From contig CAMUAR010000007.1 of NCBI GenBank assembly GCA_947086895.1, positions 1 to 64,000 of the forward strand: a stretch of 64,000 nt of DNA, written 5' to 3'. The position numbers and the translations under genes were made by a program. Below are positions 9,137-49,459 of this stretch, piece after piece. The notes beneath the pieces were generated by a model. The model was not told the DNA's origin, made no database searches, and worked only from the letters and a program-made list of their open reading frames with translations. The DNA comes from an uncultured Lachnospiraceae bacterium (lineage in GTDB: Bacteria > Bacillota > Clostridia > Lachnospirales > Lachnospiraceae). The first letter of the stretch is position 1. The number at the start of each line of letters is the position of its first letter.

Positions 9137-9174
9137 ATAAACTTTCATAGCTTATTTACAGAAACAGTTATCAG

Positions 9175-11158: not shown

Positions 11159-11168
11159 TTATTATAAT

Positions 11169-12575: not shown

Positions 12576-12587
12576 GACTATACCCTT

Positions 12588-12612: not shown

Positions 12613-12630
12613 TAAAAATTGTTTCGTCCT

Positions 12631-12659: not shown

Positions 12660-12788
12660 CTATTTTTCCCTTTCCTCTCACAGGTCAACTGCCTGCCGCC
12701 ATAGAATTGAGCAGCTTTTGTCTGGTATAAACAGGTATGCTGCCGCATAAATTATTTCAGATTCTTACATAATATATTGGAGATAATA

Positions 12789-31452: not shown

Positions 31453-31462
31453 AAAATATAGA

Positions 31463-32392
31463 TTACAATAAACTCTCTTGAATTCTTGTAATAATATCTC
31501 CTATTATTATTCTCACACCAGAGTGCATTTTAAAATTTTTTATCGCCCAAATAAAATATTTTCCCAATCTCCCTTTCATTATTAATTTTCGCTGCTTATA
31601 ATAAATAATATAAATTTTTATCTGTATTCTTGACTCTTCACTTAAATAATTTGAATTATATTTTAATAAAGCTTGTAAATAGTATAACTCTTTTTCGATT
31701 TGTGTTATACGACCATTAAAATCTGATCTTAGCTTCATTGTTAAATTTAAACCTGAAGTATTATGTTCATGTATTCTATATCTTGTTAAATGTTTATTTA
31801 ACAAATAAAATCCATTATATTCACACGCCACTAATTCAATTAGTCTGTCATGTTCTTTAAATTCTTTCGTATTCCAAACAGAAAGTTTCCATTTTAATTC
31901 TTTTTTTATAGCAAGGCTCATTCCAGGTCTAAGTCCTGTTTGATGCAACAACTGTTTTGTTGTAATTTTTGTCAGTAATTGTTTTTTTCTTTTTTCTCTT
32001 TTTATTACATTTCCTGTTCCATCAACAATTATATTTAATGCAGAAATACATAATATCGATTTATACTTTCTTAAAGTTGATACCATACATAAAACTTTGT
32101 TGTTCTCCCATATATCATCTTGATCCGCAAAAAAAATAATGTTCCCTTTTGCTAATTTTAACGCTTCAAAAAAAGTTTGTGCATACCCCTTGTTTTCCTT
32201 ATGTTTTATATACTTTATATAAATTTTTGTCTTTTTAGAAAACTCCAAAATAATTTCATCACTTGGCACAGCAGAACAATCATCAATAATTATAATCTCA
32301 TCTACAGATTGTGATTGATGGTCAATACTCTCTAATTGTTCTTTTAAATATTTGTTACCATTATATACTGCTATAACAACACTGATATCCAT
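31463..32392 (-). CDS. GT2 family glycosyltransferase
   Basis: A 309-residue GT-A fold glycosyltransferase with the family-2 N-terminus DISVVIAVYNGNKYLKEQLE, the acidic stretch IIIDDCSAV, and the metal-binding DQDDIW at about residues 90-95. The C-terminal third is basic and without membrane segments, so the enzyme probably associates with the inner membrane face to add one sugar to the repeat unit; the sugar cannot be told. The ATG directly abuts the stop of the polymerase gene, showing tight operon structure. Confidence 0.9.
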   Translation of the reverse strand: MDISVVIAVYNGNKYLKEQLESIDHQSQSVDEIIIIDDCSAVPSDEIILEFSKKTKIYIKYIKHKENKGYAQTFFEALKLAKGNIIFFADQDDIWENNKVLCMVSTLRKYKSILCISALNIIVDGTGNVIKREKRKKQLLTKITTKQLLHQTGLRPGMSLAIKKELKWKLSVWNTKEFKEHDRLIELVACEYNGFYLLNKHLTRYRIHEHNTSGLNLTMKLRSDFNGRITQIEKELYYLQALLKYNSNYLSEESRIQIKIYIIYYKQRKLIMKGRLGKYFIWAIKNFKMHSGVRIIIGDIITRIQESLL

Positions 32393-33646: not shown

Positions 33647-33696
33647 TATATCACCATAAATATATAATATCTTTTTTAATCACAATAATTTTATAT

Positions 33697-34791
33697 CTAA
33701 ATCCAATTACCTAAACATTGTTTTATTATCTTAATTTCTTTATCCACGGTATTTTTTGCATAATACATACTATTTTTTTTGTATGGCAAATTCACCAAAA
33801 GCCTATCAACCACTTTTACTGCATTCCACTGAGAAATATTATTTGGCATCAATACTACATTATGCATTCCGCCAAAAATTTCCCTGCACACATCAATATC
33901 TGATGTAATTACTGGCATACCATAAGTTGCACATTCACATGCCATTACACCTTGAGTATCCTCCCGCGTAAAGAAAAGCGCACATTTACTTTTATCCATA
34001 TAATCCAACATTTTTTCATGTAGCAATGTTTCTTCAACCCAAATCAAGTTTTTGGGTTTGTCGTTATAATTAAAAAATTGTCCTTTCCCTATCAATAAAA
34101 ACTTCATTTTAGGATACTTTTTAGCCATAGCAACAACCAAATCTACCCCATATTTTGAATCATCCAAATTTCCTCGGATTGTTATAAAATCAAATTCTTT
34201 TTTTTGGAATACATTATAACTAACTTGTTCAAAAATACGCCCCACTGAATTATGAACTATATAAGTTTTTCCCTTAAATTTATTTAAATGAAGATTCTTT
34301 TTAAACTGTTCATAAAGCCATCTGCTTACAAAAATTAATTTTATTTTTTTAGAATTTTTTAAAAAATATTTTCTCCATACTTCGAACTTAAAACAATCAT
34401 AAAAATCTTGAAATTTATCCTTCCATAAACTTCTTCTGCAAAAATCATAAGGTTTTGGATAAGCTTCATTGATTTTTAAAATTTCATGCCCATGAAAAAT
34501 AAAAATAATCTGCTTAAAATTAATATCATATTTCCTTAAAAACTTATAATGATTCCTAAGATTTGCTGCATGACATATTAAAATTTGAAATTTCTTTAGA
34601 TTTTCTTGAAAATTCTGTAACGTAATAACAGGTATTCCATCAATCTCATAATTTATTTTGGATGAGAAATTTAAAACTTCAACATCCAATCCAGCCTCTA
34701 CATAATATCTATTTCGCACATGTACAAACGACATTGCACGTCCGCCATCAAGACGTGGATAATCTGCTACTGCTACTAATATTTTTTTCAT
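33697..34791 (-). CDS. Glycosyltransferase (GT4-like, GT-B fold)
   Basis: A 364-residue cytoplasmic GT-B enzyme. The C-terminal nucleotide-sugar-binding domain shows FDFITIRGNLDDSKYGVDLV, MKFLLIGKG and the loop FFTREDTQGVMACECATYGMPVITSD, which corresponds to the E-x7-E motif region of GT4 enzymes. The N-terminus MKKILVAVADYPRLDGGRAMS fits the acceptor domain. The donor and acceptor are unknown. The gene is very A/T-rich with long A and T runs, like the genes after it in the operon. Confidence 0.85.
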   Translation of the reverse strand: MKKILVAVADYPRLDGGRAMSFVHVRNRYYVEAGLDVEVLNFSSKINYEIDGIPVITLQNFQENLKKFQILICHAANLRNHYKFLRKYDINFKQIIFIFHGHEILKINEAYPKPYDFCRRSLWKDKFQDFYDCFKFEVWRKYFLKNSKKIKLIFVSRWLYEQFKKNLHLNKFKGKTYIVHNSVGRIFEQVSYNVFQKKEFDFITIRGNLDDSKYGVDLVVAMAKKYPKMKFLLIGKGQFFNYNDKPKNLIWVEETLLHEKMLDYMDKSKCALFFTREDTQGVMACECATYGMPVITSDIDVCREIFGGMHNVVLMPNNISQWNAVKVVDRLLVNLPYKKNSMYYAKNTVDKEIKIIKQCLGNWI

Positions 34792-34807
34792 TTTTAATAT
34801 ATTGTAC

Positions 34808-35337
34808 TTAGACGGGTTTCGCAGGTATACCCGCTAGAGTCAGCCCCTCCTCTTTATAACTTTTCACTACCACAGCATTTGCACCAATAATTGTATTATT
34901 TGGTATTGAGATTCCTCCTAAAATTTTAGCCCCTGCGCCAATCAAAACATTATCTCCTATTATTGGTACAGCTTCATCCTTACCAGAAACACCAATAACT
35001 ACTCCTTGCTGAATCGAACAATTTTTTCCGATTTTGGCATTCCCATTTACTACAATCAAACCATGATGATGAATATTTAATCCTGCTCCAAAAGTGTTGA
35101 TCGGTATATCAAATCCGAGCTTTATTCCAAGCTGATGATATCTTAATTTCCAAAACCCTCTAAAAATACACCTTTTTACCCCCCCATAATATTCTGATAA
35201 TATTCTAATTTTCTTAATGATTTCTGAAATTTTAAAATTTCTTTTCCAAATAAGGGCAAAATTTTTTTATATTTATAACCCAATTTATTAAAATCGGCAT
35301 TTAAATAATCAAATAAATCTGCTTTGCTCTGAATCAT
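34808..35337 (-). pseudogene. Serine-acetyltransferase-like hexapeptide enzyme, frame broken at a G7 tract
   Basis: Minus strand: ATG at 35337 behind GAGAGGATATATTAAAC reads MIQSKADLFDYLNADFNKLG through LRKLEYYQNIMGG and stops directly after seven G residues (35179-35185). One extra G (or two fewer) restores VKRCIFRGFWKLRYHQLGIK, then LGFDIPINTFGAGLNIHHHG and the left-handed beta-helix to IPAKPV. The restored 176-residue product resembles polysaccharide O-acetyltransferases of the CysE-like hexapeptide family. As given the gene is off. It may be a phase-variable gene rather than a dead one; a sequencing error in the tract is the other option. Confidence 0.8.
35179..35185 (-). repeat. Homopolymeric G7 tract in the acetyltransferase gene
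   Basis: Seven C on the given strand. The downstream frame is open only for tract lengths of 5 or 8. Confidence 0.85.
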
Positions 35338-35393
35338 GTTTAATATATCCTCTCAACAGTGAAATTAAATTTTTAGAATCAATATCAAATCTC

Positions 35394-36542
35394 TTAATTA
35401 TTTTTTAAATCAAACAATTCTCTTATTGATTCTACAACTTGTACTATCTCACTTTCATTTAAATATGGATGAATTGGAATACTAAGAACTTTCTTGCACA
35501 AACTCTCTGTCACTGGACAATTTGCAATTGCGCTGTCTGTTCCAACAAAAGCTTTTTGTAAATGCATCGGTTTTTTATAATACACCATTGTTGGAATTTC
35601 TTTTTCCTTTAATTTTGCTTGTACTTCTGCACGTTCAACCTCTTCTGGCAATTGTATTGTATATTGAGCCCAACTACTGGCAAAATCATTTTTTATAATT
35701 GGGAGAACCAAATCAGGAATATCACTTAATCTTTCTGTATACATATTTGCAATTTGATTAATATTATTTAATTCATAATTTTTAAATGCTTCTATCTTTA
35801 CCAACAACACTGCAGCTTGAATTGTATCAAGTCTACTATTAATTCCTATACGAACATTATTGTATTTGTCTTTTTTATTCTGTCCATGTATTCGGTAACT
35901 TTTTATTAAATCTGCCCATTCGTCATTATTTGTAAAAACTGCACCTCCGTCACCATAACATCCTAATGGCTTTGCTGGAAAAAAACTTGTTGTTGAAATG
36001 TCTCCAAAACTACAAGCTTTTTTTTCTCCTATCATTCCGCCAAATCCCTGCGCCCCATCTTCCAACAACAGCAAATGATATTTTTCACAAATAATCTTAA
36101 TTTTCTGATAATCTGCCGGTAAACCAAATAAATCAACTGCTATAACAACTTTTGGATTATATTTTCCTTCCTTTTTTACCTGAATAATTGATTCTTCCAA
36201 TTTCTCTGGGCTAATATTGTATGTATATCTATCAACATCAACAAAAATAGGTGTTGCACCTTGATAAGCCGGGCATTCTCCACTAGCAAAAAAAGTAAAA
36301 TTCGGTACAAATACTGCATCTTTCTTTTTTATATTCCATGCCATTAATGCTAATGTAATTGCATCTGTCCCATTTGCACATGTAATACAATACTTAACTC
36401 CAACATAAGCAGCTAATTTTTGTTCTAGTTCTTCTACTTCGAATCCAGAAATAAAATTTGCAGAATTTATTACAGTAGCTATTCTGGCATCCATTTCTGA
36501 TTTTAACGCTTTATACTGTTTCTTTAAATCTCTAAATTCCAT
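35394..36542 (-). CDS. wbpE: UDP-3-keto-GlcNAcA aminotransferase (WbpE/WlbC-like)
   Basis: A 382-residue PLP-dependent sugar aminotransferase of the DegT/DnrJ/EryC1/StrS family. MEFRDLKKQYKAL at the N-terminus, the PLP-phosphate stretch ANGTDAITLAL, LLEDGAQGFG (Asp for the PLP ring nitrogen) and SFFPAKPLGCYGDGGA with the Schiff-base Lys are present. With WbpB and WbpD homologues immediately upstream it should install the 3-amino group of UDP-2-acetamido-3-amino-glucuronate. It overlaps wbpD by 11 bases. Confidence 0.88.
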   Translation of the reverse strand: MEFRDLKKQYKALKSEMDARIATVINSANFISGFEVEELEQKLAAYVGVKYCITCANGTDAITLALMAWNIKKKDAVFVPNFTFFASGECPAYQGATPIFVDVDRYTYNISPEKLEESIIQVKKEGKYNPKVVIAVDLFGLPADYQKIKIICEKYHLLLLEDGAQGFGGMIGEKKACSFGDISTTSFFPAKPLGCYGDGGAVFTNNDEWADLIKSYRIHGQNKKDKYNNVRIGINSRLDTIQAAVLLVKIEAFKNYELNNINQIANMYTERLSDIPDLVLPIIKNDFASSWAQYTIQLPEEVERAEVQAKLKEKEIPTMVYYKKPMHLQKAFVGTDSAIANCPVTESLCKKVLSIPIHPYLNESEIVQVVESIRELFDLKNN

Positions 36543-37140
36543 TCTGCTCCTCCTTTTCTTTCTGAATTGTATTATTTATTTCAAAATATTTGCGATAACA
36601 ATCACTGCAATATAAATTGTGATCTAATATTTGACCACATTCACAAACAACCCCAACCTGCTTTCCTGGCACTCCCGCAACCAACGCATAATCTGGTACA
36701 TCCTTTGTCACAACCGCTCCAGCTGCAACCATTGCATACTTTCCAATTACATGCCCGCATAGGATTGTTGCATTCGCACCAATGCTTGCCCCTTCCCGTA
36801 CAATAGTTTTTATATAGTTCTCTCTTCCTTTCGGAAATCTTGCCCTCGGCGTAAGATCATTGGTAAACACACAGGATGGACCACAAAAAACACCATCCTC
36901 CAACTCGACCCCTTCATATACGGATACATTGTTTTGAATTTTTACTTTATCACCGATCACTACATGATTTGCAATATTTACATTTTGCCCAATGGAACAA
37001 TGTTTTCCAATTCTAGCGCCGGATTGTATATGACAAAAATGCCAAATCTTTGTTCCATCTCCGATTTCCACATTCTCATCAATATAACTGCTCTCATGCG
37101 CAAAATATCCTGTTTTTTCCTTCTTAATTTTTCTTCTCAT
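36532..37140 (-). CDS. wbpD: UDP-3-amino-GlcNAcA N-acetyltransferase (WbpD/WlbB-like) with zinc-ribbon tail
   Basis: A 202-residue left-handed beta-helix acetyltransferase. Hexapeptide repeats run from about residue 17 to 165, with IWHFCHIQSGARIG, NVNIANHVVIGDKVKIQNN and GVFCGPSCVFTNDLTPRA, all typical of WbpD/WlbB, which acetylates the 3-amino group. The last 40 residues add two cysteine pairs (CECGQILDHNLYCSDC), a likely zinc-binding tail. It lies between the WbpB and WbpE homologues, completing the pathway to UDP-2,3-diacetamido-glucuronate. Confidence 0.88.
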   Translation of the reverse strand: MRRKIKKEKTGYFAHESSYIDENVEIGDGTKIWHFCHIQSGARIGKHCSIGQNVNIANHVVIGDKVKIQNNVSVYEGVELEDGVFCGPSCVFTNDLTPRARFPKGRENYIKTIVREGASIGANATILCGHVIGKYAMVAAGAVVTKDVPDYALVAGVPGKQVGVVCECGQILDHNLYCSDCYRKYFEINNTIQKEKEEQNGI

Positions 37141-37274
37141 CTTCCTTACTTCTCTTTTCTGTCACCCTGTCTTTTGAAATTCCTATTGTCCATCATTTTG
37201 ACAGTTCCTAAAATTTTCTATATTTCTTTGGCTTTTATATGTAATTCCCTATTCAAAGTCATTTTCATAAATTC

Positions 37275-38372
37275 TTAAAATTCTTTTATCTTCTCTTCTC
37301 CAAACTCTCCTTTCATATCTGCGCTTCCAAATTCTTTTAATGGAAATTCCACCACTTCCCCAGTTTTCTGGCTTTTATAAACTGCCAATACCAATTCCAA
37401 CGCTCTTCTTCCCGCATGGGCATCCACATATGGTTCTCTGTCTTCCCGGATGGCACAAACCACATCTGCAAAAAGGCTGGTATGACCATTCCCGTAAACA
37501 TTGCTGGTTGCTTCCTTTAGACTTTTGTTTTTATAATCCTCCTCTGTTTCACCCGCAAAATTCCAAACTTCAATATTGTTTGTCGATTTTCCGCCCAGTT
37601 TTACGGTTCCGTTCTCTCCAAACAGATATAAAGTTTCTTCCAGATTCTGAGGATACACATTCGTTGTCCCTTCAATGGTTGCAATCACGCCATTTTTAAA
37701 CTTTACCACTGCCATCCCCACATCTTCCGCTTCCAGATAAGAATGGAATTGCTGCCTTGTTGCGCCGTAGACACTTTCGATCTCATCCCCCAGCATCCAG
37801 CGCAGCAGGTCGATCCCATGGATGCACTGGTTCATCAACGCACCGCCGTCCTGTTCCCAAGTGCCGCGCCAAGGTGCCTGTGTGTAATAATCTCTGTTGC
37901 GGTTCCAGCGGACATGGATGGAACCGTGGGAAATCCTGCCAAAACGCCCTGTTTCCAATGCTTTTCTCATCTCCTGTACCGCGATGTTAAATCGGTTTTG
38001 GTGACAGGCAGATACTTTCACATGATATTCTTCTGACAATTGGATAATCCTGTCAGCTTCTGCAAGTGACATTGCCATCGGCTTTTCAATAATGACATGG
38101 ATTCCATGCTGAATACAGTCAAGGGCAATCTGCCCGTGCAGACCACTTTCAGTTGCGATGCTGACCAACTCTGGTTTTATTTCTGCAATCATTTTCCGAT
38201 AATCTGTATAACGCGCTATTGTTCGATCTTCTTTTTTCTCATGTTTTTCCAAAACTGCTTCCATATGTTCCGGGATAATATCGCATACTGCCACAAGCTC
38301 CAACTGGTTGGCAATCGCCGCTTTTATATGGTTTGTGGAAATCCGACCACAGCCGATCAGTGCATATCTCAT
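37275..38372 (-). CDS. wbpB: UDP-GlcNAcA 3-dehydrogenase (WbpB/WlbA-like)
   Basis: A 365-residue Gfo/Idh/MocA oxidoreductase with the Rossmann start RYALIGCGRISTNHIKAA, the conserved EKPMAM (about residues 96-101), CHQNRFNIAVQEMRKAL and GALMNQCIHGIDLLRWMLG with the catalytic His region. The family member WbpB/WlbA oxidises the 3-hydroxyl of UDP-GlcNAcA. The match to WlbA-type features and the adjacent aminotransferase and acetyltransferase genes make this the specific call. AGGAG precedes the start. The dlt set lies immediately upstream. Confidence 0.87.
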   Translation of the reverse strand: MRYALIGCGRISTNHIKAAIANQLELVAVCDIIPEHMEAVLEKHEKKEDRTIARYTDYRKMIAEIKPELVSIATESGLHGQIALDCIQHGIHVIIEKPMAMSLAEADRIIQLSEEYHVKVSACHQNRFNIAVQEMRKALETGRFGRISHGSIHVRWNRNRDYYTQAPWRGTWEQDGGALMNQCIHGIDLLRWMLGDEIESVYGATRQQFHSYLEAEDVGMAVVKFKNGVIATIEGTTNVYPQNLEETLYLFGENGTVKLGGKSTNNIEVWNFAGETEEDYKNKSLKEATSNVYGNGHTSLFADVVCAIREDREPYVDAHAGRRALELVLAVYKSQKTGEVVEFPLKEFGSADMKGEFGEEKIKEF

Positions 38373-38409
38373 TTTTCTTTTCTCCTGTTCTTGTTATATA
38401 TTTTCTATC

Positions 38410-38562
38410 CTAAAACTGATTATAAATAAATTCTGGAACTGTGGTCATCTCTGTGTTAATCAGATGGAAAAAAATACAGATCAGCATGATTCCCATGGCA
38501 ATCCCATGAACGACCAGCACTATATTTTCATTTTTTTTTATTCTGCTTATCAGCTTATTCAC
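38410..38562 (-). CDS. dltX: DltX-like small membrane protein
   Basis: A 50-residue protein with a GTG start at 38562 behind GAGGTGG. A basic N-terminus (NKLISRIKKNEN) is followed by one membrane segment (IVLVVHGIAMGIMLICIFFH, about residues 14-33) and the C-terminus TVPEFIYNQF. DltX proteins are about 50 residues with one membrane helix and end in FIYNxF; the Tyr is the proposed carrier of D-alanine between DltB and DltD. It lies 42 bases after dltD, completing a dltABCDX set. DltX is usually encoded before dltA, so the position at the end is unusual. Confidence 0.85.
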   Translation of the reverse strand: MNKLISRIKKNENIVLVVHGIAMGIMLICIFFHLINTEMTTVPEFIYNQF

Positions 38563-38604
38563 TTTACGATCCACCTCATTTTCGAATCTTTTTATAAAAG
38601 GTTT

Positions 38605-40434
38605 TCACTCACTTTGCATTACATGAAATATGTCAATTCCTCTGATCTCGATTCTTTCAGAAAGAAAAGTACTCACATCAAACTGATATTTCACCACATC
38701 ACCATGCTTTAATGCGACTTGACTCGCTATCGTCTGATCCGCCTTGTTACTATTTCCTTTAACCACAAATGTATAGATACCATCATCAAGTTGATTGACA
38801 TAAGTACCGCTCAAATATCCGGTTTCTGACAGGCTATCTATATTTGCAATATGGCTGCCCTCCGAGTCATACACCTGTAAGACAACAGCATTAAATTGAT
38901 TATCCTCTGTCTCTGTTGTCATAATAAATTTCCCGGGTTCTGACTCCACGCACCCTGCTGAGAGCTGTCTGTTCAAAAACATCCTCTCTGCCTGCAGTAT
39001 TGTTACATCCGCCCTTATCCCTGCCCCGTGGTCCGCAACCCCTTCAAGATTTACTGTTTTTTGTTTTGTTATTTCCTCTGCTGCATCGGTCACACCTCTA
39101 AGATACCCATCTGCACTTATGGTAAGCTTTATGGGAGAATCAAAATTTATCTGTGCTTCCGAAACATCAGATATATAATTTAACAAACGGATTTCAGCAC
39201 TTTTGCTCTCCGTATCCTCCTTTATCACATACGCGGATACCTCAAATGGATAATTCCTTACTTTGTCATGATCAAGGTAATAGCGGTAAACTCCCTCATT
39301 AAGGTATGCCCATCCTTTCCAGCCAAGGTGCATAATATCCTTGAGGAAATAAGGTTCATACTCCTTATCAGAAAAATCCAGCACTGACACGCCATGCGCC
39401 ATACAAATATCCCTTATCTTTTGATAATAGGCTTTCCTGCTTGCCTGCGGAAAACCAGTCCAGTCATACCAGATTCCGTTCACTGGAATATTTACAATCA
39501 ACGGGGTAATTCCCGTATCCTCACAGACTTTGAAAAACAACTCTAAATCGTCATATTCCGGGGATTCCAGATAACTCGCTCCTGTATTTACACCCTTGTT
39601 GCTAAAGTATCCGCTTTCAATATATGTAGTGTAATAATAGTCATATATATATAAATTGTTGTTTGTACACGCCTTTACACCAGCCTGCTCCGCTTTTTTC
39701 AACAACTCCTGATAATCGATATTCTCTGCCACGACCTGCTCTTCTGACGGACTTACTGTGATTTTCTCCAGTTCCATCAACAGATCCCTTGTCTGCTTAT
39801 TCTCCATAACAATATCCCAAGCCGCAACTTGTAATCTCTCCGCCAAACTGGCATTTTTTTCTATATACACCTTGTCATAAAGCAGCACCCTCCGATATTC
39901 TTCTGGGTTTCCTGTTTCCAGCAAACTTTCTGCCCGGTCAGCCAGTTTCCTTTTTGTCTCATAGGAGAGATTTTTATTTTTTACCATATGCGAAAATAAT
40001 CTCTCGGAAAACCTGCTCGCATAAGCTTCGCCGCTTAAGTGACTTGCAGTAAACCACTGCGGCGACAAAATCAATACAACTTTTTTGTTTTCGATATCAT
40101 CCGCAACTGCTCCTAAAGTAATCGCGTGGTGAAGGGATTGCATAGTCCCCCTTCCTACCATAATTATATTATAATCAGAATTTCCTCCATTAAATAACGC
40201 GGGCGGGTACGCAACATTGTCCGATGCTGACAGCTCAGATGATCCAAATAACAAAATCGAGCTGTTATCTGCCAAATCTCCCAAAACCGCCGCGCAGAAA
40301 TTCCTTGTGTCAGTATTATAATAGATAATTTTGCTCCTGTCTGACAGGACTGCCTTTTGATTGAATACAGAATATCCCACAACAAAGACAGTTAAGATTA
40401 CACAGGCAGCCACCAGCGGCAAAATTCTTTTCAT
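38605..40434 (-). CDS. dltD: DltD-like D-alanyl transfer protein with C-terminal extension
   Basis: A 609-residue exported, membrane-anchored protein: N-terminal membrane segment (about 4-22), then an SGNH-like hydrolase domain. The catalytic Ser is in LLFGSSELSAS (about residue 65) and the Asp/His pair in LKDIMHLGWKGWAYLN (about 363-378); WNGxGM-like text typical of the fold is absent. DltD moves D-alanine to its final acceptor outside the membrane. Usual length is about 390-430; here some 200 extra C-terminal residues follow, probably beta-rich with Ig-like character, and may hold the polymer. GGAGGCGCAGGA precedes the start. Confidence 0.88.
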   Translation of the reverse strand: MKRILPLVAACVILTVFVVGYSVFNQKAVLSDRSKIIYYNTDTRNFCAAVLGDLADNSSILLFGSSELSASDNVAYPPALFNGGNSDYNIIMVGRGTMQSLHHAITLGAVADDIENKKVVLILSPQWFTASHLSGEAYASRFSERLFSHMVKNKNLSYETKRKLADRAESLLETGNPEEYRRVLLYDKVYIEKNASLAERLQVAAWDIVMENKQTRDLLMELEKITVSPSEEQVVAENIDYQELLKKAEQAGVKACTNNNLYIYDYYYTTYIESGYFSNKGVNTGASYLESPEYDDLELFFKVCEDTGITPLIVNIPVNGIWYDWTGFPQASRKAYYQKIRDICMAHGVSVLDFSDKEYEPYFLKDIMHLGWKGWAYLNEGVYRYYLDHDKVRNYPFEVSAYVIKEDTESKSAEIRLLNYISDVSEAQINFDSPIKLTISADGYLRGVTDAAEEITKQKTVNLEGVADHGAGIRADVTILQAERMFLNRQLSAGCVESEPGKFIMTTETEDNQFNAVVLQVYDSEGSHIANIDSLSETGYLSGTYVNQLDDGIYTFVVKGNSNKADQTIASQVALKHGDVVKYQFDVSTFLSERIEIRGIDIFHVMQSE

Positions 40435-40445
40435 TCCTGCGCCTC

Positions 40446-40685
40446 CTATATCCTCCCTGTTCTCTGAAGCACCAAATCTATAACTTTTTGAGGCGTATTG
40501 ATCTGCGCTCTGTCAAGTTCTGATGGCGCCACTGTAATCCCGAATGTTTCCTCAAGCTGTATTACCATCTCGATAAATCCAAGGGAATCCAGCAAATCCG
40601 TTTCGAAAAGTTCTATGTTAAGATCCTCTTTTACGACATCATCCTCACATGCCTTTGATAATATATCTAAAATCTTCTCTTCCAT
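40446..40685 (-). CDS. dltC: D-alanyl carrier protein DltC
   Basis: A 79-residue acyl-carrier protein. The phosphopantetheine-bearing Ser is in DLLDSLGFIEM (Ser34), matching the DSLG variant used by DltC. It receives D-alanine from DltA and delivers it to DltB at the membrane. Length and acidity are typical. GGGGGATTAAA precedes the start. It is separated from dltB by 122 bases that contain a palindromic element, and from dltD by 11 bases. Confidence 0.93.
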   Translation of the reverse strand: MEEKILDILSKACEDDVVKEDLNIELFETDLLDSLGFIEMVIQLEETFGITVAPSELDRAQINTPQKVIDLVLQRTGRI

Positions 40686-40694
40686 TTTAATCCC

Positions 40695-40780
40695 CCATTC
40701 CGAAGTGCTTTTTGTTTAAGGTATGCAAGCCGAATATTAGATTTGGCTCTGCGATTTAAATTTGTGATGTTCTGGCATAA
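40695..40780 (-). repeat. Possible palindromic element between dltB and dltC
   Basis: Shares CCATTCCGAAG and GCGATTT...AAATTTGTGA with the element in the truA leader (17503-17570), in the same orientation relative to the downstream gene. The stem is weaker here. Confidence 0.4.
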
Positions 40781-40807
40781 TCCTTTTCGTTTATACCTTT
40801 CGCATCT

Positions 40808-41998
40808 TTATACTCCTATAATCACTGCCCCTTTTATAAAATCCTGCACCATTGTGTTTATATACCCCGAAAAAACCAAAAAGCCAAACATCACAATATT
40901 TAATGTGATAAACCATGATGCCATTTTATACCAAAGTTTCCCTTTTGATTTTTTGTAAAACTTTGATTTTTTCTGATAAATTTCTGTTATAGCTAAAATC
41001 ACACCATGATACAGACCATATTGTATATAATGCGTCTCAAGTCCATGCCACAGACCCATAATAAACATGTTCACGATATATCCTGCCGATGCTGCATAAA
41101 TACGGTCAGAAAACCATTTGCTTTTTAAGGCTCCCATCATAAAACGATTAAAAATAAAATCTCGGAACCATGTTGACAGCGAAATATGCCACCGATTCCA
41201 GAAATCTTTCATATCAAGACTGATAAATGGCAGCCGAAAATTATCTGGCAGCTGTATACCCAAAACATACGCTGTACCCACAGCCATTGCCGAGTACCCG
41301 GCAAAATCAAAGAACAGATATAATCCGTAGGTATAGGCACTTCCCAGTACTGTCAGTGTACTGTATGGTTTTGCAAAAAAATCCTGCATCCAGCCATAAC
41401 ATATCTCTGAGCATACAATTTTGTAAAATGCCCCAAGGACAAGTTTGAATGTACCAGCTTCAAACAGCTTGCTGTATTCCTCCCTTGTATACTCTCTTGC
41501 ATCATCCTGGCAAAACCTTCTGCTTCGGTCGATCGGTCCAGAACTTAAGCTTGGGAAAAACAAGAGGAAACCCAAATACGAAAAGGCTTGGATATCCGCA
41601 ATTACACCATCGTGGATTTCTATGATTACCTGCACGGATCGGAAACAGATATATGAAATTCCAAGGAATCCCCCCACACCTTCTTCGAACGCGGATATTT
41701 TGTAAAACACCAGCAGCATTAACGCTAAACCTACTACAGTATGGAATACGAAATCGCTATCATTCCCCCTGCTCTTTAAGTAAATATATATTTTAGTCAA
41801 AAACAACGCAAATATTGCATAACCTAACAACAGCCACAATTGATTTGGAGTTGTGTGATATATCAGATAGATCAAGAGTCCCGATGCAAATGCTCTGTAA
41901 AATTTTAGGTACTTACTTTTCCAAAATCCTATCACAGCCGCTGCGATCAACACCACAGCCAGCCACGAGAAAAAATCAAATCCTGAATAGAAACTCAT
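40808..41998 (-). CDS. dltB: MBOAT acyltransferase DltB
   Basis: A 396-residue membrane protein of the MBOAT family with about eleven hydrophobic segments. DltB features are clear: LLFFPSLSSGPIDRSRRF, the DLDMKDFWNRWHISLSTWF-like text (LDMKDFWNRWHISLS) and the catalytic His in MGLWHGLETHY (about residue 317). It accepts D-alanine from DltC inside and passes it across the membrane. It overlaps dltA by 4 bases (ATGA). A G6 run (41670-41675, VGGF) is in frame. Confidence 0.94.
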   Translation of the reverse strand: MSFYSGFDFFSWLAVVLIAAAVIGFWKSKYLKFYRAFASGLLIYLIYHTTPNQLWLLLGYAIFALFLTKIYIYLKSRGNDSDFVFHTVVGLALMLLVFYKISAFEEGVGGFLGISYICFRSVQVIIEIHDGVIADIQAFSYLGFLLFFPSLSSGPIDRSRRFCQDDAREYTREEYSKLFEAGTFKLVLGAFYKIVCSEICYGWMQDFFAKPYSTLTVLGSAYTYGLYLFFDFAGYSAMAVGTAYVLGIQLPDNFRLPFISLDMKDFWNRWHISLSTWFRDFIFNRFMMGALKSKWFSDRIYAASAGYIVNMFIMGLWHGLETHYIQYGLYHGVILAITEIYQKKSKFYKKSKGKLWYKMASWFITLNIVMFGFLVFSGYINTMVQDFIKGAVIIGV

Positions 41999-43581
41999 CT
42001 TTGGCTGTCCTCCAATGCTTTTCTGTCCACTTTTCCATTCATTGTCATAGGAATAAAATCAACGAACTTGATTTTTTTTGGAACCATATACTCTGGCAAA
42101 AGCTGTTTTAATTCCCTTTTTATTTTCTGTGATAACTGAAAATCAAACGTTGCAATTTTTGTACTGTTTTCTCTATACACAAGATAGGCTGTAAGGCTTT
42201 TCACTCGGTGGCTGTCATCAAAATTTGGCAGCACAACTGCCTTCTCTACATAAGGTATCTTAATCAAATTGTTTTCTATATCCTCAATTTCTATTCTGTA
42301 GCCGTGGAGCTTGATTTGAAAATCCATGCGCCCGCAGTAAAACAATTGACCGTTTTTTTTATATCCTTTATCACCTGTGCGGTACAGACGATATTCTGTG
42401 CCATTAATCGTATAAATTGAAAATGATTTTTTTGTCTGCTCCTCATTTCTATAATATCCTGTGCTTACTGTGTCGCCTACAATAATGATTTCGCCCTCTT
42501 CCCCATCTGGCATATTATTACCATTTTCATCCACGATAAAAATCCATGTGCCGGGTTTTGCCGCGCCAACCGGCAGTGGATTGTAATCATTCAATGTTTC
42601 TTCGTCAATCACAGCCTGTGTTACACAAACCGTCGATTCTGTAGGTCCGTAAGTATTTACAATTACGGATTCTGGGAAATTTTCACGCAATCTTTCTACC
42701 GTTCTGTTTGTCAATACCTCTCCACAGAACAGAAAGTATTTCATATTCTTTAACAGCTTATCATTAAAGCAATGGTCTGACAGACATACATCAGCAAACG
42801 AGGGAGTGAATACCCAGATATTTACATCTGCTACAGATAATACCTTATACAGCAGCTTTAAATTCTTCTGTATTTCTTTCGTGACTGCACATATCGTCCC
42901 ACCAGTGCAGAGAGAAAGATATATATCCATCACTGACAGGTCGAAGGAAAATGGAGCCTGATTCAGAAAGCGGTACGTATGTTGTGAAATACCCCCCCCC
43001 GCTAAATTTTGAGCCCACTTTACATAATTTGTGAGACACTCCGTGCTGATCTTCACGCCCTTGGGATTTCCTGTTGAGCCAGATGTGAAAATGATATAGA
43101 AGGTGTCTTCTGGTTTTGTACAGAGATCTTGTGCTATTTCATACTGTCCATCATAACTTATATTCCTTATGGACATTAGGTCAAGATATTCACAGCCTAT
43201 TGGCAACAAAAAGTCTTTATCTTCTGTTGCCAATATTATTTCAGGTTCCACGCTGCCAATAATATCTTCCACCCTTGATGTTGGAACGGATACATCTATG
43301 GGAATATAGGCATGTCCTGATTTTGCACAAGCTATAAAACAACTAAGCATATATTTATTTTTATGCCCGTACACAATAATTGGGTTTCTCCCCTTTGTAT
43401 GGGTGCTGATATAGCCAGCCAATCGATCCGAATATTGATTTAACTCCTTCCATGTTAAAGAATCTACTGTATAATGGGACTTTTGCAACATATCTGTTTC
43501 CGCTGCATCATATACAATATATGCTATGCTATCAGGGTTCTTCTTGGCATATTCTTTTATCTGATGGATCATTTCATTCAT
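41995..43581 (-). CDS. dltA: D-alanine--carrier protein ligase DltA, with internal G9 tract
   Basis: A 528-residue adenylating enzyme. The ATP loop IIFTSGSTGNPKG (about 165-177), LNQAPFSFDLSVMD, the D-alanine-selective Cys in LFCGEVL (about 290), NTYGPTES, YRTGD and the C-terminal catalytic Lys in NGKVDRKAL are all conserved, closely following DltA proteins. It activates D-alanine and loads DltC. AGGAGG lies ten bases before the start. Codons around residue 195 contain nine consecutive G (42992-43000) encoding AGGG in a non-conserved loop; a change of one would truncate the enzyme at about 200 residues. Confidence 0.95.
   Translation of the reverse strand: MNEMIHQIKEYAKKNPDSIAYIVYDAAETDMLQKSHYTVDSLTWKELNQYSDRLAGYISTHTKGRNPIIVYGHKNKYMLSCFIACAKSGHAYIPIDVSVPTSRVEDIIGSVEPEIILATEDKDFLLPIGCEYLDLMSIRNISYDGQYEIAQDLCTKPEDTFYIIFTSGSTGNPKGVKISTECLTNYVKWAQNLAGGGISQHTYRFLNQAPFSFDLSVMDIYLSLCTGGTICAVTKEIQKNLKLLYKVLSVADVNIWVFTPSFADVCLSDHCFNDKLLKNMKYFLFCGEVLTNRTVERLRENFPESVIVNTYGPTESTVCVTQAVIDEETLNDYNPLPVGAAKPGTWIFIVDENGNNMPDGEEGEIIIVGDTVSTGYYRNEEQTKKSFSIYTINGTEYRLYRTGDKGYKKNGQLFYCGRMDFQIKLHGYRIEIEDIENNLIKIPYVEKAVVLPNFDDSHRVKSLTAYLVYRENSTKIATFDFQLSQKIKRELKQLLPEYMVPKKIKFVDFIPMTMNGKVDRKALEDSQR
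42992..43000 (-). repeat. Homopolymeric G9 tract in dltA
   Basis: Nine C on the given strand. The frame is open at this length; adding or losing one or two bases would shift it. Confidence 0.9.
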
Positions 43582-43675
43582 TTGTACCAGTCCTCCTCTT
43601 AATTCCCATCTCCAAAAGGCTCTTCATCTTTTCAGATTAATTGTTCTTTTCAACTGCACCCAACCAATGTATATT

Positions 43676-44775
43676 TTATAAAAAACTACCTCTTTCCATC
43701 TTATCTTCAAGAAGTTGTACAATTTTTTCAGCAGAATGACCATCTCCAAAAGGGTTGTAATCTTCTTTAATCAACTGCTTGGTATTTAATTTATCAATAA
43801 TCTCATCTGCAATTGGTTTTGACAATTCGTTTCTGCCATCTACCATAATTTCCGGCCAACATACAAAATCAAGAATTGTGATACATTTCTTTTTTGCAAA
43901 AAATGCTTCACGCTGCAAACCTCCTGAGTCTGTAACTACTTTTTTTGCATTATCAACAAGATAAATACTTTCCAGATAACCGACTGGTTCACATAATATT
44001 ATCTTTTGGAATTTATATTTTCGCTGTAACTTTTCTGCATATTGCCTACTTCTTGGATGTACAGGATAAATCGTGGGAGCATCTAACTGTTCCATCGCTC
44101 TAAATATTTCTAAAAGTGTATGGCTATCACTTGTATTTTCTTCTCTATGACAAGTCAAATAATAAAATTCTTTAGGTATGGAAATCAAACCTTCAAAAAA
44201 TGAATTTAGTTTAAAATCTTTACAATACTTTTTTATTCTATATTTTAAAAAAGCATCGTACATAGGATCTCCAACCATATATCCCCGCTCAGATAATCCT
44301 TCTGAATTTATATTTCTTATACCACTTTGTGTACTTGCCAACAATAAAGATGAAAGATGATCTGTTAAAATTCTATTGACTTCTTCTGGATTCTTTTTAT
44401 TATAAGTACGTACTCCTGCCTCCACATGGCAAATTGGAATATGTAACTTCGCCGCTGACAATGCCGCTGCTAATGTGGAATTTGTATCTCCATAAACAAG
44501 TAACAGATCTACCCCCCCCCAATATATTTTTGCAATATTTCTTCTATTGCAATCATCATTCTACCTGTCATTTGCGCATGAGTACCTCCAGAAATACCAA
44601 GATTATAATCTGGATCTGGAATATCCAATTCTTTAAAAAATTGCGCAGACATATTATAATCATAATGCTGACCTGTATGGATTAATACTTCTGTATGTTT
44701 TTTTCTTAGTATTTCTGACACAACTGCTGCCTTAATAAACTGGGGACGCGCCCCAACAACAGTAACTATTTTCAT
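43676..44775 (-). pseudogene. wbpI: UDP-GlcNAc3NAcA 2-epimerase (WbpI-like), frame broken at a G9 tract
   Basis: Reads MKIVTVVGARPQFIKAAVVS, IHTGQHYDYNMS and GGTHAQMTGRM to EEILQKYIGGG, then stops at 44509 directly after nine G. With 7 or 10 G the frame continues VDLLLVYGDTNSTLAAAL, HVEAGVRTYNKKNPEEVNRI, TCHREENTSDSH and TDSGGLQREAFF to the end. The text fits WbpI (GISGGTH...MTGRM) better than housekeeping WecB. The restored enzyme (about 365 residues) would convert UDP-GlcNAc3NAcA to UDP-ManNAc3NAcA. As given it is off; no other damage is seen, so it may be switchable. It ends one base before wbpA's stop region and precedes dltA by 94 bases. Confidence 0.85.
44512..44520 (-). repeat. Homopolymeric G9 tract in wbpI
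   Basis: Nine C on the given strand. The downstream frame is open only for tract lengths of 7, 10 and so on. Confidence 0.9.
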
Positions 44776-46092
44776 TTACAATACCTCAACATTTTCTTTG
44801 TTTTTCACATTACTCATTACATTTTTAGTGTCAAAGACCACTTTTGCATTTTTTTGAACCATATCATAGTCAATATTGTGGTGCGCTGCGGTTACTATCA
44901 CCAGATCAAATTCTGCGATAACCTGAAAAGTAAGTTCAGGAATACTTTTGCCATTTTCTCCATACATATTTCTAAATTCTGGTATCCATGGATCATAATA
45001 CTCCACAATTGCACCAACTTTTTTTAATTCTTTTAAAACTCTGATTGCTGGACTTTCTCGATAATCATCAATATCATTTTTATAAGAGACACCAAGAAGG
45101 AGAATTTTTGCCCCATTGATCGCTTTTTTCTGTCGATTTAAAATATGCATTACTCTTTCAACACAATATTCAGGCTGACCATCATTAATTATCATGCTAT
45201 TTTCAATTAACGTAGTATGAAATCCATATTCACGCGCTTTCCATGTAAGATAATATGGATCTAATGGAATGCAGTGACCCCCAAGCCCTGGTCCTGGATA
45301 AAATGCTTGAAATCCATAAGGTTTTGTTTTTGCTGCATCAATTACCTCCCAGATAGAAATCCCCATCTTATGACATAACCTTCCAAGTTCATTGATCAAA
45401 CCTATGTTTATATTGCGGTAAGTATTTTCTAAAATTTTTTCCATTTCTGCTACTGCTGGACTGGATACAGTATGTACTTCTCCATCAAGTACAGCCCTGT
45501 ACATTGCCGAAATTACTTCGGCTGCATCTTTCCCAATTCCTCCAACCACTTTCGGAGTATTTTTTGTTTTATAAATCAAATTTCCTGGATCAACTCTTTC
45601 TGGGCTAAACCCAAGATAAAAATCTTTTTCACATTTTAAGCCGCTTCCTTTTTCCAGAATTGGTTTTATCAATTCTTCTGTTGTTCCAGGATATGTTGTA
45701 GATTCAAGTACTACAATAGAGCCTTTTTTTAAATACTTTGAAATAGAAACAGCACAATTCTTTACATAGCTGATGTCTGGCTCCTGATGTTTATCCAATG
45801 GTGTAGGGACGCAGATTGCGATAAAATCTACATCTTTAATAAAAGAAAAATCTGTTGTAGCACGGAACCTCTTATTTTTAACCAAACTGGCAATATCAGA
45901 ATCAACTACATCGCCAATATAATTCTGCCCTGCATTAACCAAATCAACTTTATTTGACTGAACATCAAAACCTATTGTTTGAAAACCTGCTTTTGCTTTT
46001 TCTACAGCAAGAGGCAGTCCTACATATCCTAACCCAACAACTCCAGCAACAATAGTACGATTTTCAATTTTGCTCAATAATTCTTTTTTCAT
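44776..46092 (-). CDS. wbpA: UDP-N-acetylglucosamine 6-dehydrogenase (WbpA-like)
   Basis: A 438-residue UDP-sugar dehydrogenase with VGLGYVGLPLAVEKA at the NAD site, CVPTPLD, ESTTYPGTTEEL, the substrate region NTYRNINIGLINELGRL and the catalytic Cys in GLGGHCIPLDPYYL (about residue 260). WbpA oxidises UDP-GlcNAc to UDP-GlcNAcA, the first step toward the diacetamido-uronic acid made by WbpB, WbpE and WbpD encoded downstream. WecC-type UDP-ManNAc dehydrogenase is the close alternative; the presence of the other wbp genes favours WbpA. It overlaps the upstream glycosyltransferase by 4 bases. Confidence 0.88.
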   Translation of the reverse strand: MKKELLSKIENRTIVAGVVGLGYVGLPLAVEKAKAGFQTIGFDVQSNKVDLVNAGQNYIGDVVDSDIASLVKNKRFRATTDFSFIKDVDFIAICVPTPLDKHQEPDISYVKNCAVSISKYLKKGSIVVLESTTYPGTTEELIKPILEKGSGLKCEKDFYLGFSPERVDPGNLIYKTKNTPKVVGGIGKDAAEVISAMYRAVLDGEVHTVSSPAVAEMEKILENTYRNINIGLINELGRLCHKMGISIWEVIDAAKTKPYGFQAFYPGPGLGGHCIPLDPYYLTWKAREYGFHTTLIENSMIINDGQPEYCVERVMHILNRQKKAINGAKILLLGVSYKNDIDDYRESPAIRVLKELKKVGAIVEYYDPWIPEFRNMYGENGKSIPELTFQVIAEFDLVIVTAAHHNIDYDMVQKNAKVVFDTKNVMSNVKNKENVEVL

Positions 46093-47336
46093 TTTTTTTT
46101 AAATGCCCTTTCAAACTTTTCTGATAATACAGGAATTGTAAAGTTCTGCATTACTGCATCCTTTCCGTTTTTTCCCATAGATTCTAATTTTTCTTTTGGC
46201 ATACCGATTAATTTTTGAATTCCTTCAACAAGAGCTTCTGTACTTTCTGGAGTCACGCTGATTCCACAATGATAATCTTTAATATAATTGTTTGGTGCAT
46301 GAACTGCATATAAAATTGGTTTACCAGACATCATAGAATCAAACAATTTATTCATACATATTCCAAAACGGAACATTCTGCTATTAATGGCACCGATATA
46401 TATAATATCCACCTGACTCAGCAAAACTGGAACACTTTTTTTTGAAATACTTTCAAAAAAATATATATTATTCATACCTGCAGCTCGCTCAACCAATTTG
46501 TTTTTGTAATTTCCATTTCCAACTATCAGAAGTCCTACTTCCGTATTATTAAACTGTTTCATCGCATCAATCAGATAATCCAAAGCATAAGAAATTGTTA
46601 TACTTCCAAAAAAACAAATCAGAAATTTATGGTTTTTCTTAATTCCTGTAAGTTCTTGTTGCATCTTCTCTGGCAAAGGTGTAATATTTAACCATTCTTC
46701 CTCAAGAATACCATTCGGTACATGAACAAATTTTCCTTGACGCAATCCACGTTTTATCAAATATTTTTCTGCACATGGCAACAATGAAACTACAGCGTCC
46801 GAATTGCAGCAAAAAGATTTTTCTGCTTTTTGCATTATCTTGATAAATGGATGTTTTGGGGACATTCCTCCAATTTCAACAGGAACAATTGGCCACATAT
46901 CATGAATTTCATGAATTAACTTTCCTTTTCCTCTAGTATACTTCTTAATACGCTGCCCTACATAGGTATCAAGTGGATAAGTAGAAGATGTGATTATAAC
47001 ATCTGGTTGAAACTTTTGTGCAATGTTCTTTGCATTAAACCATAACTTTCCTACAAATTGAAACATTGTTAAAGCTCTTTTCCCACCATTTCCTTCGTAA
47101 CTTATTGTATGAATCCAATGATAATGAATACCGTCTATTATTTGTTCCTCAAAATCTTTGTTTATTTTAGGATTGCTGATCCGTAAATGCGAATAGCTTG
47201 CTGCTATCACATCGACTCGATATCCTTTTTTGACCCATTCCCTCGCAAAATAATATGGTCTGAATTCCATTCCCATATCAGGAGAACCTGCATAATGGTT
47301 GATTAATAATATATTTTTTATAGCCCTATTTTTCAT
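46089..47336 (-). CDS. GT4-family glycosyltransferase (WbuB-like)
   Basis: A 415-residue GT-B glycosyltransferase. The N-terminus ILLINHYAGSPDMGMEFRPY and YYFAREWVKKGYRVDVIAAS are typical of the WbuB-like group that adds amino-sugars early in repeat-unit assembly. HEIHDMWPIVPVEIGG, VVSLLPCAEKYL and FFGSITISYALDYLIDAM continue the match; the C-terminal motif region reads FGICMNKLFDSMMSGKPILYAV. It follows the initiating transferase, so it may add the second sugar (inference). Confidence 0.88.
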   Translation of the reverse strand: MKNRAIKNILLINHYAGSPDMGMEFRPYYFAREWVKKGYRVDVIAASYSHLRISNPKINKDFEEQIIDGIHYHWIHTISYEGNGGKRALTMFQFVGKLWFNAKNIAQKFQPDVIITSSTYPLDTYVGQRIKKYTRGKGKLIHEIHDMWPIVPVEIGGMSPKHPFIKIMQKAEKSFCCNSDAVVSLLPCAEKYLIKRGLRQGKFVHVPNGILEEEWLNITPLPEKMQQELTGIKKNHKFLICFFGSITISYALDYLIDAMKQFNNTEVGLLIVGNGNYKNKLVERAAGMNNIYFFESISKKSVPVLLSQVDIIYIGAINSRMFRFGICMNKLFDSMMSGKPILYAVHAPNNYIKDYHCGISVTPESTEALVEGIQKLIGMPKEKLESMGKNGKDAVMQNFTIPVLSEKFERAFKKK

Positions 47337-47447
47337 AAGACTTTTTTACCTCCAATAACACTTTCAATATTATGTAATTCTATTTTCTTAATAATATTGA
47401 TTATAGTAATGTTATGTTTTCTTTATTATTTGATTATTTTTAAAAAT

Positions 47448-48137
47448 TCACCCTCTCACTACTGCCCCTATTGTTCTTATCATCACCCAAATCTCTCTTA
47501 GAAATCCAAACTTTCTTATCCCCTCCAAATTATATTTCATCTTTCCTGGCAGCACTTTTTTTATATAAACCTCTTCCACATTCTCCCCCGCAGCCCCAAG
47601 CGTTCCTGCCTCATCTTTATAATAAATACTTGCTTCGCTTGTAATTCCAGCCGGAAGTAACAGTGTTGCTCTCATTTCCCTTGTATATTTCTTTACATAC
47701 CTTGGAACCTTGGGTCTTGTTCCGACAAAACTCATCGCCCCGCTTATTACATCAAATAACTGCGGAAGCTCGTCCAGTCTGTATTTTCGCAAAACCTTTC
47801 CCACTTTTGTGACTCGGTTATCTTGTCCTACTGTTACCTGCGAGCCAAGTTGATCCGCGTTTTGTACCATCGTTCGAAATTTATGTATCCGAAACCTTCT
47901 TCCGTAAGCGGTCACCCGCACTTGGCGATAAAATATTCCTCCCGGCGAATCAAACACGATAGCAATTGCAATCGCGCACATTACCGGTATGAAAAAGATC
48001 AGCAGTATTATGGCTGCAAAAAAATCAAACCCCCGCTTAAACGCCAAACTTATTTTTCTTTTCGCCAGAATATCATAATATTCCTTTACTTCTGGTATCT
48101 GCATCCAAACCGGCAGCTTATCCCATGCCTTCAGCAT
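47448..48137 (-). CDS. Initiating phosphoglycosyl transferase (PglC/WcaJ type)
   Basis: A 229-residue monotopic membrane enzyme that transfers a sugar phosphate to undecaprenyl phosphate to start the repeat unit. One membrane segment (about residues 36-60) ends in a Pro-containing turn (FFIPVMCA). Motifs follow: FYRQVRVTAYGRRFRIHKFR, TM, RKYRLDELPQLFDVISG and MSFVGTRPKVPRYV. The small size without the extra N-terminal membrane domain makes it PglC-like. With the PglF-like dehydratase at 22-23.8 kb and the aminotransferase just upstream, a 4-amino-4,6-dideoxy sugar is the likely first residue. Confidence 0.9.
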   Translation of the reverse strand: MLKAWDKLPVWMQIPEVKEYYDILAKRKISLAFKRGFDFFAAIILLIFFIPVMCAIAIAIVFDSPGGIFYRQVRVTAYGRRFRIHKFRTMVQNADQLGSQVTVGQDNRVTKVGKVLRKYRLDELPQLFDVISGAMSFVGTRPKVPRYVKKYTREMRATLLLPAGITSEASIYYKDEAGTLGAAGENVEEVYIKKVLPGKMKYNLEGIRKFGFLREIWVMIRTIGAVVRG

Positions 48138-48241
48138 TTTTTTATTTCCTTTTCTATATTTCAGTGACGGTAAAACTCTAAACTTTTGATGTATTCAGCG
48201 AACTGCCTTATAAAAGCTTTTAAAGATAAAATAAAAATCAC

Positions 48242-49459
48242 CTACTTTCCTGCAATTTCTTTTACTGCTTCTATAAAGGTTCCAATTACATACTCTACAT
48301 CTTCATTGTTAAGGCAAGTGTGCAATGGCAGGGAAATCTCATTTTTATATTGCCGGTATGAATTGGGATAATCTTCAATACATAACCCCATTTTTTGGTA
48401 AGCGGTCATCATTGGCAGCGGTTTATAGTGAACATTGCAGGCAATTTTCTTTTCCGCCATCTGCGCAATCAGTTTATTTCTCTCTCCCTCTGTAATTCCA
48501 GGTATTCTGGCTAAATAAAGATGCCCGCTGGAACTGTTGTGATGGTCATAATGCACCAGTCTGCGGATACCGAAAGGCAGGAATGCTCTATCGTACTGTT
48601 CAATAATTTCTCTGCGTCTGTCAAGCAATTTATCGTATCGTTCCAGCTGTTTTAATCCAATGGCGGCCTGAATGTCTGTCATATTACATTTAAACGCGGG
48701 GTATATGATGTCATATTCCCAATTGCCAAATTGATTTTTTGTAAATGCATCCTTACTTTGACCATGTAGAGAATATAACATATATTGATGATACAGCCAT
48801 TCTTCATCAATTTCTTCTCTTTTTCTCCATGTCACAGCTCCGCCCTCCCCTGTTGTCAGGTTCTTGACAGCATGAAAAGAAAATGTTGTAAAATCTGCAA
48901 GCTGCCCGCTTTTTTTTCCATCCTGAACCGCCCCAAAACCATGTGCAGAATCTGCGATAACAATAACTCTGCCATACACTTCCTGCAATGGATTATTTGG
49001 TTGAAACAGTTCCTTTTTACTTTCAATTTCCTGGTAAATTCTTTTGTAGTCGCACAAACGTCCTCCAAGATCCACTGGTATAATTGCCTTTGTTTTTTCT
49101 GTAATCGCCCCAGCAATCTTGTTATAATCCATCTCAAACGACTCATCAGACACATCCAGCATAACAATTTTGGCGCCGGTATGAGCCACTACAGATGCAG
49201 ATGCTGTGTAAGTATAAGCTGGCACAATAACTTCATCTCCTGGCCCAATGCCCAAAATCCGAAGTGTCATCTCGGCAGCGGCCGTCTGAGAATTTAAGAC
49301 AACCGCATATTTGTTTCCTATATACTCTGCTATTCTTTTTTCAAAACATTTTGTTCTTGCGCCTGTTGTAATCCATCCTGACTTTAAAGCATCCACTACT
49401 TCGTCCACTTCAAGCTGCGTGATATCCGGCGGGGAAAATGGCACTGCCTGTCTTACCAT
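48242..49459 (-). CDS. UDP-4-keto-sugar aminotransferase (DegT/PglE-like)
   Basis: A 405-residue PLP enzyme of the DegT/DnrJ/EryC1/StrS family: VPFSPPDITQLEVDEVVDAL, LNSQTAAAEMTL, the long VIVIADSAHGFGAV stretch with the PLP Asp, and FSFHAVKNLTTGEGGAV with the Schiff-base Lys. It likely aminates the 4-keto product of the PglF/CapD-type dehydratase at 21.9-23.8 kb. It is the first gene of the roughly 19.5-kb exopolysaccharide operon. An upstream ATG at about 49468 is a less likely start. A GGCTGTACAGCC palindrome lies about 35 bases upstream. Confidence 0.87.
   Translation of the reverse strand: MVRQAVPFSPPDITQLEVDEVVDALKSGWITTGARTKCFEKRIAEYIGNKYAVVLNSQTAAAEMTLRILGIGPGDEVIVPAYTYTASASVVAHTGAKIVMLDVSDESFEMDYNKIAGAITEKTKAIIPVDLGGRLCDYKRIYQEIESKKELFQPNNPLQEVYGRVIVIADSAHGFGAVQDGKKSGQLADFTTFSFHAVKNLTTGEGGAVTWRKREEIDEEWLYHQYMLYSLHGQSKDAFTKNQFGNWEYDIIYPAFKCNMTDIQAAIGLKQLERYDKLLDRRREIIEQYDRAFLPFGIRRLVHYDHHNSSSGHLYLARIPGITEGERNKLIAQMAEKKIACNVHYKPLPMMTAYQKMGLCIEDYPNSYRQYKNEISLPLHTCLNNEDVEYVIGTFIEAVKEIAGK

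Follow-up and report, generated by a model that had tools for sequence, protein, structure and literature searches.

Why would a complete set of genes for D-alanylation, which is treated as a teichoic acid modification under regulatory control, reside in the middle of an exopolysaccharide (EPS) operon? The question is raised by a stretch of 64,000 nucleotides from an uncultured Lachnospiraceae bacterium (GenBank assembly GCA_947086895.1, contig CAMUAR010000007.1, positions 1 to 64,000 of the forward strand), called the window below. It is carried by contig C7 of a draft genome of 3.75 Mb (G000). The genes dltA, dltB, dltC, dltD, and dltX (positions 38410-43581) are internal to a Wzx/Wzy-type EPS operon that occupies positions 30016-49459, on the minus strand throughout. 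An earlier note, made from the sequence of this locus, suggested that the polymer made by this operon, or one co-regulated with it, receives D-alanine esters. We conclude that a bona fide Dlt pathway has been taken into the EPS operon, and we consider it probable that D-alanine esters are added, possibly in a phase-variable manner, to the polymer that the operon produces.

A complete Dlt pathway within an exopolysaccharide operon

As the earlier note described, the dltABCDX set is complete and lies between wbpI (43676-44775, upstream) and wbpB (37275-38372, downstream). All of these genes are on the minus strand, with small gaps between them. DltA, DltB, DltC, and DltD were judged by the NCBIfam equivalog cut-offs, which all four exceed. 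DltA, the D-alanine--carrier-protein ligase of 528 amino acids (41995-43581; TIGR01734/NF003417), scores 567.6 bits against a cut-off of 559.85, and it matches PDB 3fcc/3dhv (E 1e-130). The corresponding values are 443.7 and 375 bits for the MBOAT D-alanyl transferase DltB (40808-41998; TIGR04091; PDB 6bug, E 1e-71), 71.7 and 52.35 bits for the D-alanyl carrier protein DltC with its DSLG site (40446-40685; TIGR01688, and also above the cut-off of NF003464), and 330.2 and 150 bits for the SGNH D-alanyl transferase DltD (38605-40434; TIGR04092). DltX, a membrane microprotein of 54 amino acids (38410-38574), had no match in a profile search with hidden Markov models. Its C-terminus, EFIYNQF, fits the FXYXXF acyl-shuttle motif, whose tyrosine ferries D-alanine from DltB to DltD (PMC12148441).

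All five genes are intact and retain their catalytic residues. The window DltA and Bacillus cereus DltA align over their full length, and the FCGEVL segment, in which the earlier note had recognized the cysteine of the D-alanine pocket, aligns with the same residues of the B. cereus structures. D-alanine as the amino acid activated by DltA is consistent with this conserved cysteine. In DltD, the GSSE and D366-x-x-H369 residues are conserved and occupy invariant alignment columns. The gene order, with dltX last, was also considered as a possible peculiarity of the locus, but this was rejected because DltX after DltD is the rule in clostridial dlt loci.

Judging from these protein families, DltA would activate D-alanine and load it onto DltC, DltB would hand it to the DltX tyrosine, and DltD would transfer it to extracellular hydroxyls. 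Up to DltD, the mechanism is the known Dlt mechanism.

The sugar pathway divided by the dlt genes

Homologues of all five enzymes WbpA, WbpB, WbpE, WbpD, and WbpI, which form the route to UDP-ManNAc3NAcA, are present together in the operon. They comprise a UDP-HexNAc 6-dehydrogenase (wbpA, 44776-46092; TIGR03026 and Pfam), a Gfo/Idh/MocA UDP-sugar 3-dehydrogenase (wbpB; Pfam; PDB 3q2i/3q2k, E 1e-70 or better), a DegT-type 3-aminotransferase (wbpE, 35394-36542; PDB WbpE 3nyu, E 3e-86), a hexapeptide N-acetyltransferase (wbpD, 36532-37140; PDB 3mqg, E 6e-56), and a UDP-GlcNAc3NAcA 2-epimerase (wbpI; PDB 8sxv, E 3e-53). Because the best or near-best PDB matches of WbpE, WbpD, WbpB, and part of WbpI belong to the biosynthesis of UDP-2,3-diacetamido-uronic acid, the dlt genes do split the pathway for one sugar, and we infer the exact sugar in the polymer from this route.

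The wbp set is not fully intact in this assembly. The wbpI frame is broken at a G9 tract (44512-44520), leaving two open reading frames (44509-44775 and 43676-44461), and without a switch of frame the pathway as assembled would therefore go no further than the gluco sugar.

A C-terminal extension of DltD related to AlgX-family proteins

The window DltD consists of a core (residues 1-390) and a C-terminal extension of about 220 residues (approximately residues 390-609; positions 38605-39267). Of about 100 DltD proteins examined, only the one from the window has this extension; it is 609 amino acids long, and the others have at most 439. Solved DltD structures (PDB 3bma/6o93) align to residues 54-391 only, and no PDB sequence matched the tail when the proteins that bear it were used as queries.

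When the tail was searched against 397 genomes of the family, one other protein was found (locus L258), which matches residues 503-598 (E 2.4e-8 per genome). The match was repeated by direct blastp comparison (E 1e-11). The L258 protein is an AlgX-family SGNH protein (PF16822) encoded directly after an AlgI-type MBOAT, and there, too, the shared domain is C-terminal to the SGNH domain. In Pseudomonas aeruginosa AlgX, the SGNH domain precedes a carbohydrate-binding module, and the protein binds polymannuronate and acetylates it (PMC4148444). By this parallel, the homology to the AlgX-family C-terminus (residues ~503-598) suggests that the window DltD is fitted with a polymer-binding tail.

Distribution of dlt genes and their linkage to wbp genes

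The earlier note took dlt operons to be stand-alone as a rule, and this is borne out among relatives. They are also rare in the family: DltD exceeds its cut-off in 13 of the 299 genomes sampled across Lachnospiraceae, in 18/391 across the class, and in 47/206 genomes of Clostridiaceae (a family name that is itself inferred). DltB exceeded its cut-off in none of five congeners searched, several of which are incomplete. A locus search with DltA as the query returned 11 loci, none of them embedded in an EPS operon.

Linkage to polysaccharide genes nevertheless recurs in two settings. First, in another Lachnospiraceae genus (G262; L270/L037), dltABCDX forms the end of a related EPS operon, with identities to the window proteins of 60% for DegT and 55% for PglC. 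Second, dlt genes are associated with HexNAc3NAcA genes in 16 Clostridiaceae genomes (loci L128, L129, L132, L203, L207, L210, L212, L214, L216-L218, L220, L221, and L223-L225). Here, dltD-dltX-dltA-dltB-dltC come immediately after wbpE-wbpD-wbpA with no change of strand, and the proteins are 62-63% (WbpA) and 57-61% (WbpD) identical to their window counterparts. We found no paper on this Clostridiaceae cluster.

In a tree built from DltA and DltB, the wbp-linked Clostridiaceae loci make up a clade of their own, which is supported and distant from the window. The window and the EPS-embedded L037 are joined with moderate support, although both are long branches and the join may be false. Because the wbp-linked Clostridiaceae clade is separate from the window, the association between dlt and wbp genes arose at least twice.

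Two other arrangements were observed in these surveys. At L031 (G282, positions 6571-13665), inspection of the sequence shows TarI- and TarJ-like genes after the dlt operon, which suggests that Dlt acts on a ribitol-phosphate polymer in that genus. In one Clostridiaceae genus, two dltD genes face each other (L189, at 7678 on the plus strand and 11539 on the minus strand; L186; L190), and there is therefore one extra DltD per dlt operon.

Poly-G tracts and candidate phase variation

The window contains three G/C runs of at least 7 nucleotides. All lie inside the operon, and in each the G residues are on the coding strand: a G9 tract in dltA (42992-43000, minus strand), which is in frame and falls in a variable loop, the G9 tract in wbpI, and a G7 tract in a gene for a hexapeptide transferase (35179-35185), the last two genes being frame-broken. 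A slip of any one base at the dltA tract would end the 528-residue protein early, at residue 206 or 246.

A pattern search of the genome, combined with inspection of fetched regions, identified 20 distinct tracts of at least G9, which are strongly clustered; in each cluster, the coding strand is the one that has the G residues. All but one (19/20) are in glycan biosynthesis loci, in genes that are intact or broken, and the 20th is upstream of a kinase gene. The tract-bearing genes, some of which were assigned by position only, encode FdtA, GT4, hexapeptide and GNAT acyltransferases, sugar dehydratase, UDP-galactopyranose mutase, acyltransferase-3, TupA, CMP-sugar synthetase, and polysaccharide deacetylase. 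Furthermore, a cytidylyltransferase tract is G11 in this genome versus G10 in a congener, where the surrounding DNA has diverged.

In Campylobacter jejuni, the cgtB tract changes from 8 to 9 G residues and back (PMC6437147). By analogy, the tract pattern in the window's genome is that of putative slipped-strand contingency genes such as those of Campylobacter. Phase variation of dltA is likely because the pattern is of this contingency type and because slips at the in-frame G9 would truncate DltA.

Clusters of coding G8-G12 tracts, many of them frame-broken, are found on contigs C2, C3, C33, C47, C60, C69, C71, C79, and C94 of the genome (loci L171-L178 and L119), and tract clusters are likewise found in the congener G173 (L229-L235). 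Together, these may represent a Campylobacter-like set of putative phase-variable glycan loci in Lachnospiraceae.

Organization of the operon and related genes elsewhere in the genome

The unidirectional run begins with a DegT aminotransferase gene (48242-49459; PF01041), followed by genes for a PglC/WcaJ-type priming sugar transferase (47448-48137; PF02397) and a GT4-type glycosyltransferase (46089-47336; Pfam), and then by wbpA, wbpI, dltA, dltB, dltC, dltD, dltX, and wbpB. After wbpB come wbpD, wbpE, the frame-broken hexapeptide gene, which is serine-acetyltransferase-like (34808-35337, in pieces at 35176-35337 and 34808-35059), and a second GT4-type gene (33697-34791; Pfam). The run ends with a gene for a Wzy-like polymerase (32393-33646; DUF6337, PF19863), whose role is suggested by its position and hydrophobicity, a GT2-type glycosyltransferase gene (31463-32392; PF00535), and the Wzx flippase gene (30016-31452; PF01943). 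Intergenic gaps from 49459 to 30016 range from -11 to 134 bp. A promoter and terminator scan gave 8 terminator-like sites where 8.9 are expected, which equals chance and indicates no internal stop. The operon is probably transcribed as one unit.

No second dlt operon was found in the genome. A DltA-like AMP ligase on contig C39 was considered as a second dlt representative and rejected, as its score of 137 bits is below the cut-off. The gene for this ligase (688 amino acids) has genes for an MBOAT and for a protein of SGNH type as neighbors (L120, positions 7822-13441), and the three genes look like a second, non-Dlt acyl-transfer cassette.

Possible acceptors of D-alanine

The likeliest acceptor of D-alanine is the Wzx/Wzy polymer that this operon makes. 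The polymer would contain 2,3-diacetamido-uronic acid, and the D-alanine esters would offset its carboxylates. The AlgX-like C-terminal domain of DltD might bind the polymer or steer it. Through the dltA G9 tract, the modification is probably phase-variable, because this coding tract is of a type nearly confined to glycan loci in the genome, and the choice of sugar may vary along with it through wbpI. More tentatively, Dlt may have been retargeted from teichoic acid to a diacetamido-uronic polymer by means of the AlgX-type DltD domain, and poly-G slippage in dltA and wbpI may switch it in step with the sugar composition of the polymer, so that surface charge would vary stochastically in this gut member of the Lachnospiraceae.

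Several observations weigh against this reading. Stand-alone dlt operons are the majority in clostridial relatives, and the wbpEDA-dlt clusters of Clostridiaceae are without wbpB and have no flippase or polymerase (Wzx/Wzy) nearby. When dltA was shuffled synonymously, with its three glycines given, G9 arose in 2% of trials. The homologue of the DltD tail covers only its last ~95 residues. The tail folded alone reached a predicted local distance difference test (pLDDT) value of 32, and full-length DltD, folded with 9 sequences, gave a modelled core and a tail below 50. Finally, the genome carries predicted CDP-glycerol teichoic-type genes, and a conventional acceptor is thus at hand.

One alternative is that dlt acts on a conventional (lipo)teichoic acid whose genes lie elsewhere, with its place in the EPS operon reflecting only an insertion accident or co-expression. 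Contigs C12 and C57 carry candidate genes for TagD, for TagF-like polymerases, and for a TagGH-type transporter, and contig C82 carries one for an LtaS-like sulfatase; these were named from sequence inspection and PF04464/PF00884 matches. This alternative is also favored by the lack of any other dlt in the genome and by the mostly stand-alone dlt loci of relatives. It accounts poorly for the pairing of wbp and dlt genes in a separate clade and the EPS embedding in another genus, for an AlgX-family tail that occurs in no other DltD examined, and for a dltA G9 tract of the glycan-gene type, and we regard it as unlikely, though deserving of attention. Teichoic-type genes and a single dlt operon are two of three findings that the earlier note had named as jointly telling against its proposal. 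The coupling to EPS that it put forward is partly supported, by the Clostridiaceae recurrence, the embedded operon of G262, the DltD tail, and the dltA G9 tract. The poly-G tracts, the wbpI frame break, and the DltD extension had no place in that note.

Both polymers might instead be substituted, with DltX and DltD supplying D-alanine to any passing polymer and the placement of the genes tying the modification to the expression or phase of EPS. Dlt systems do serve more than one teichoic polymer (lipoteichoic and wall teichoic acid), and this genome encodes both acceptor types. However, the DltD extension suggests a dedicated acceptor, making promiscuous substitution improbable. It is very improbable that the cassette is inactive or decaying, a reading prompted by the frame breaks at 44512-44520 (wbpI) and 35179-35185 (the acetyltransferase gene) in a single genome and by the prospect of homopolymer assembly errors, since the five dlt genes are intact with their catalytic residues and the tracts, unlike random errors, are concentrated in glycan loci and reappear at one and the same position in a congener.

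Relation to known systems and implications

The locus resembles canonical Firmicutes dlt(X)ABCD operons in its five proteins, their catalytic residues, the FXYXXF motif of DltX, and the clostridial ABCDX order. It differs in its Wzx/Wzy EPS embedding, the ~220-residue DltD tail, and the dltA G9 tract, and it has no counterpart in the congeners searched. The AlgI/AlgJ/AlgX system of O-acetylation shares with it an MBOAT and SGNH pair, an extracellular uronic acid polymer (here the proposed acceptor), and the AlgX-family C-terminus to which the DltD tail is related. In that system the acyl donor is acetyl-CoA, whereas in the window it would be D-alanyl-DltC, the SGNH core is DltD rather than AlgX, and the tail is a candidate carbohydrate-binding module. 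Likewise, each of the five steps of P. aeruginosa wbpABEDI (UDP-ManNAc3NAcA) has a homologue in the operon, but the window set is split by dltABCDX and has wbpI out of frame at G9. The coding G8-G12 tracts in in-frame and broken glycan genes recall the poly-G phase-variable genes of C. jejuni; here, they occur in a member of Lachnospiraceae and include dltA, and the switching is a prediction from sequence.

The novelty lies in finding EPS embedding that recurs, an AlgX-type DltD tail, and a slippery dltA together. Searches of the open-access literature for D-alanine esters on EPS, dlt genes in capsule or EPS loci, phase variation of dltA, and poly-G phase variation in Lachnospiraceae yielded no paper that reports such a system in its title or abstract.

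If a Dlt pathway is indeed dedicated to EPS, the MBOAT-SGNH theme would extend to D-alanine on capsules. D-alanine on EPS would mean that anionic polymers can turn zwitterionic, a shift that matters for resistance to antimicrobial peptides and for the immune recognition of zwitterionic capsules, and the coding G9 tract in dltA would render the polymer charge phase-variable. Because many Clostridiaceae carry wbpEDA-dlt clusters, the question can be put to the test in species that are culturable.

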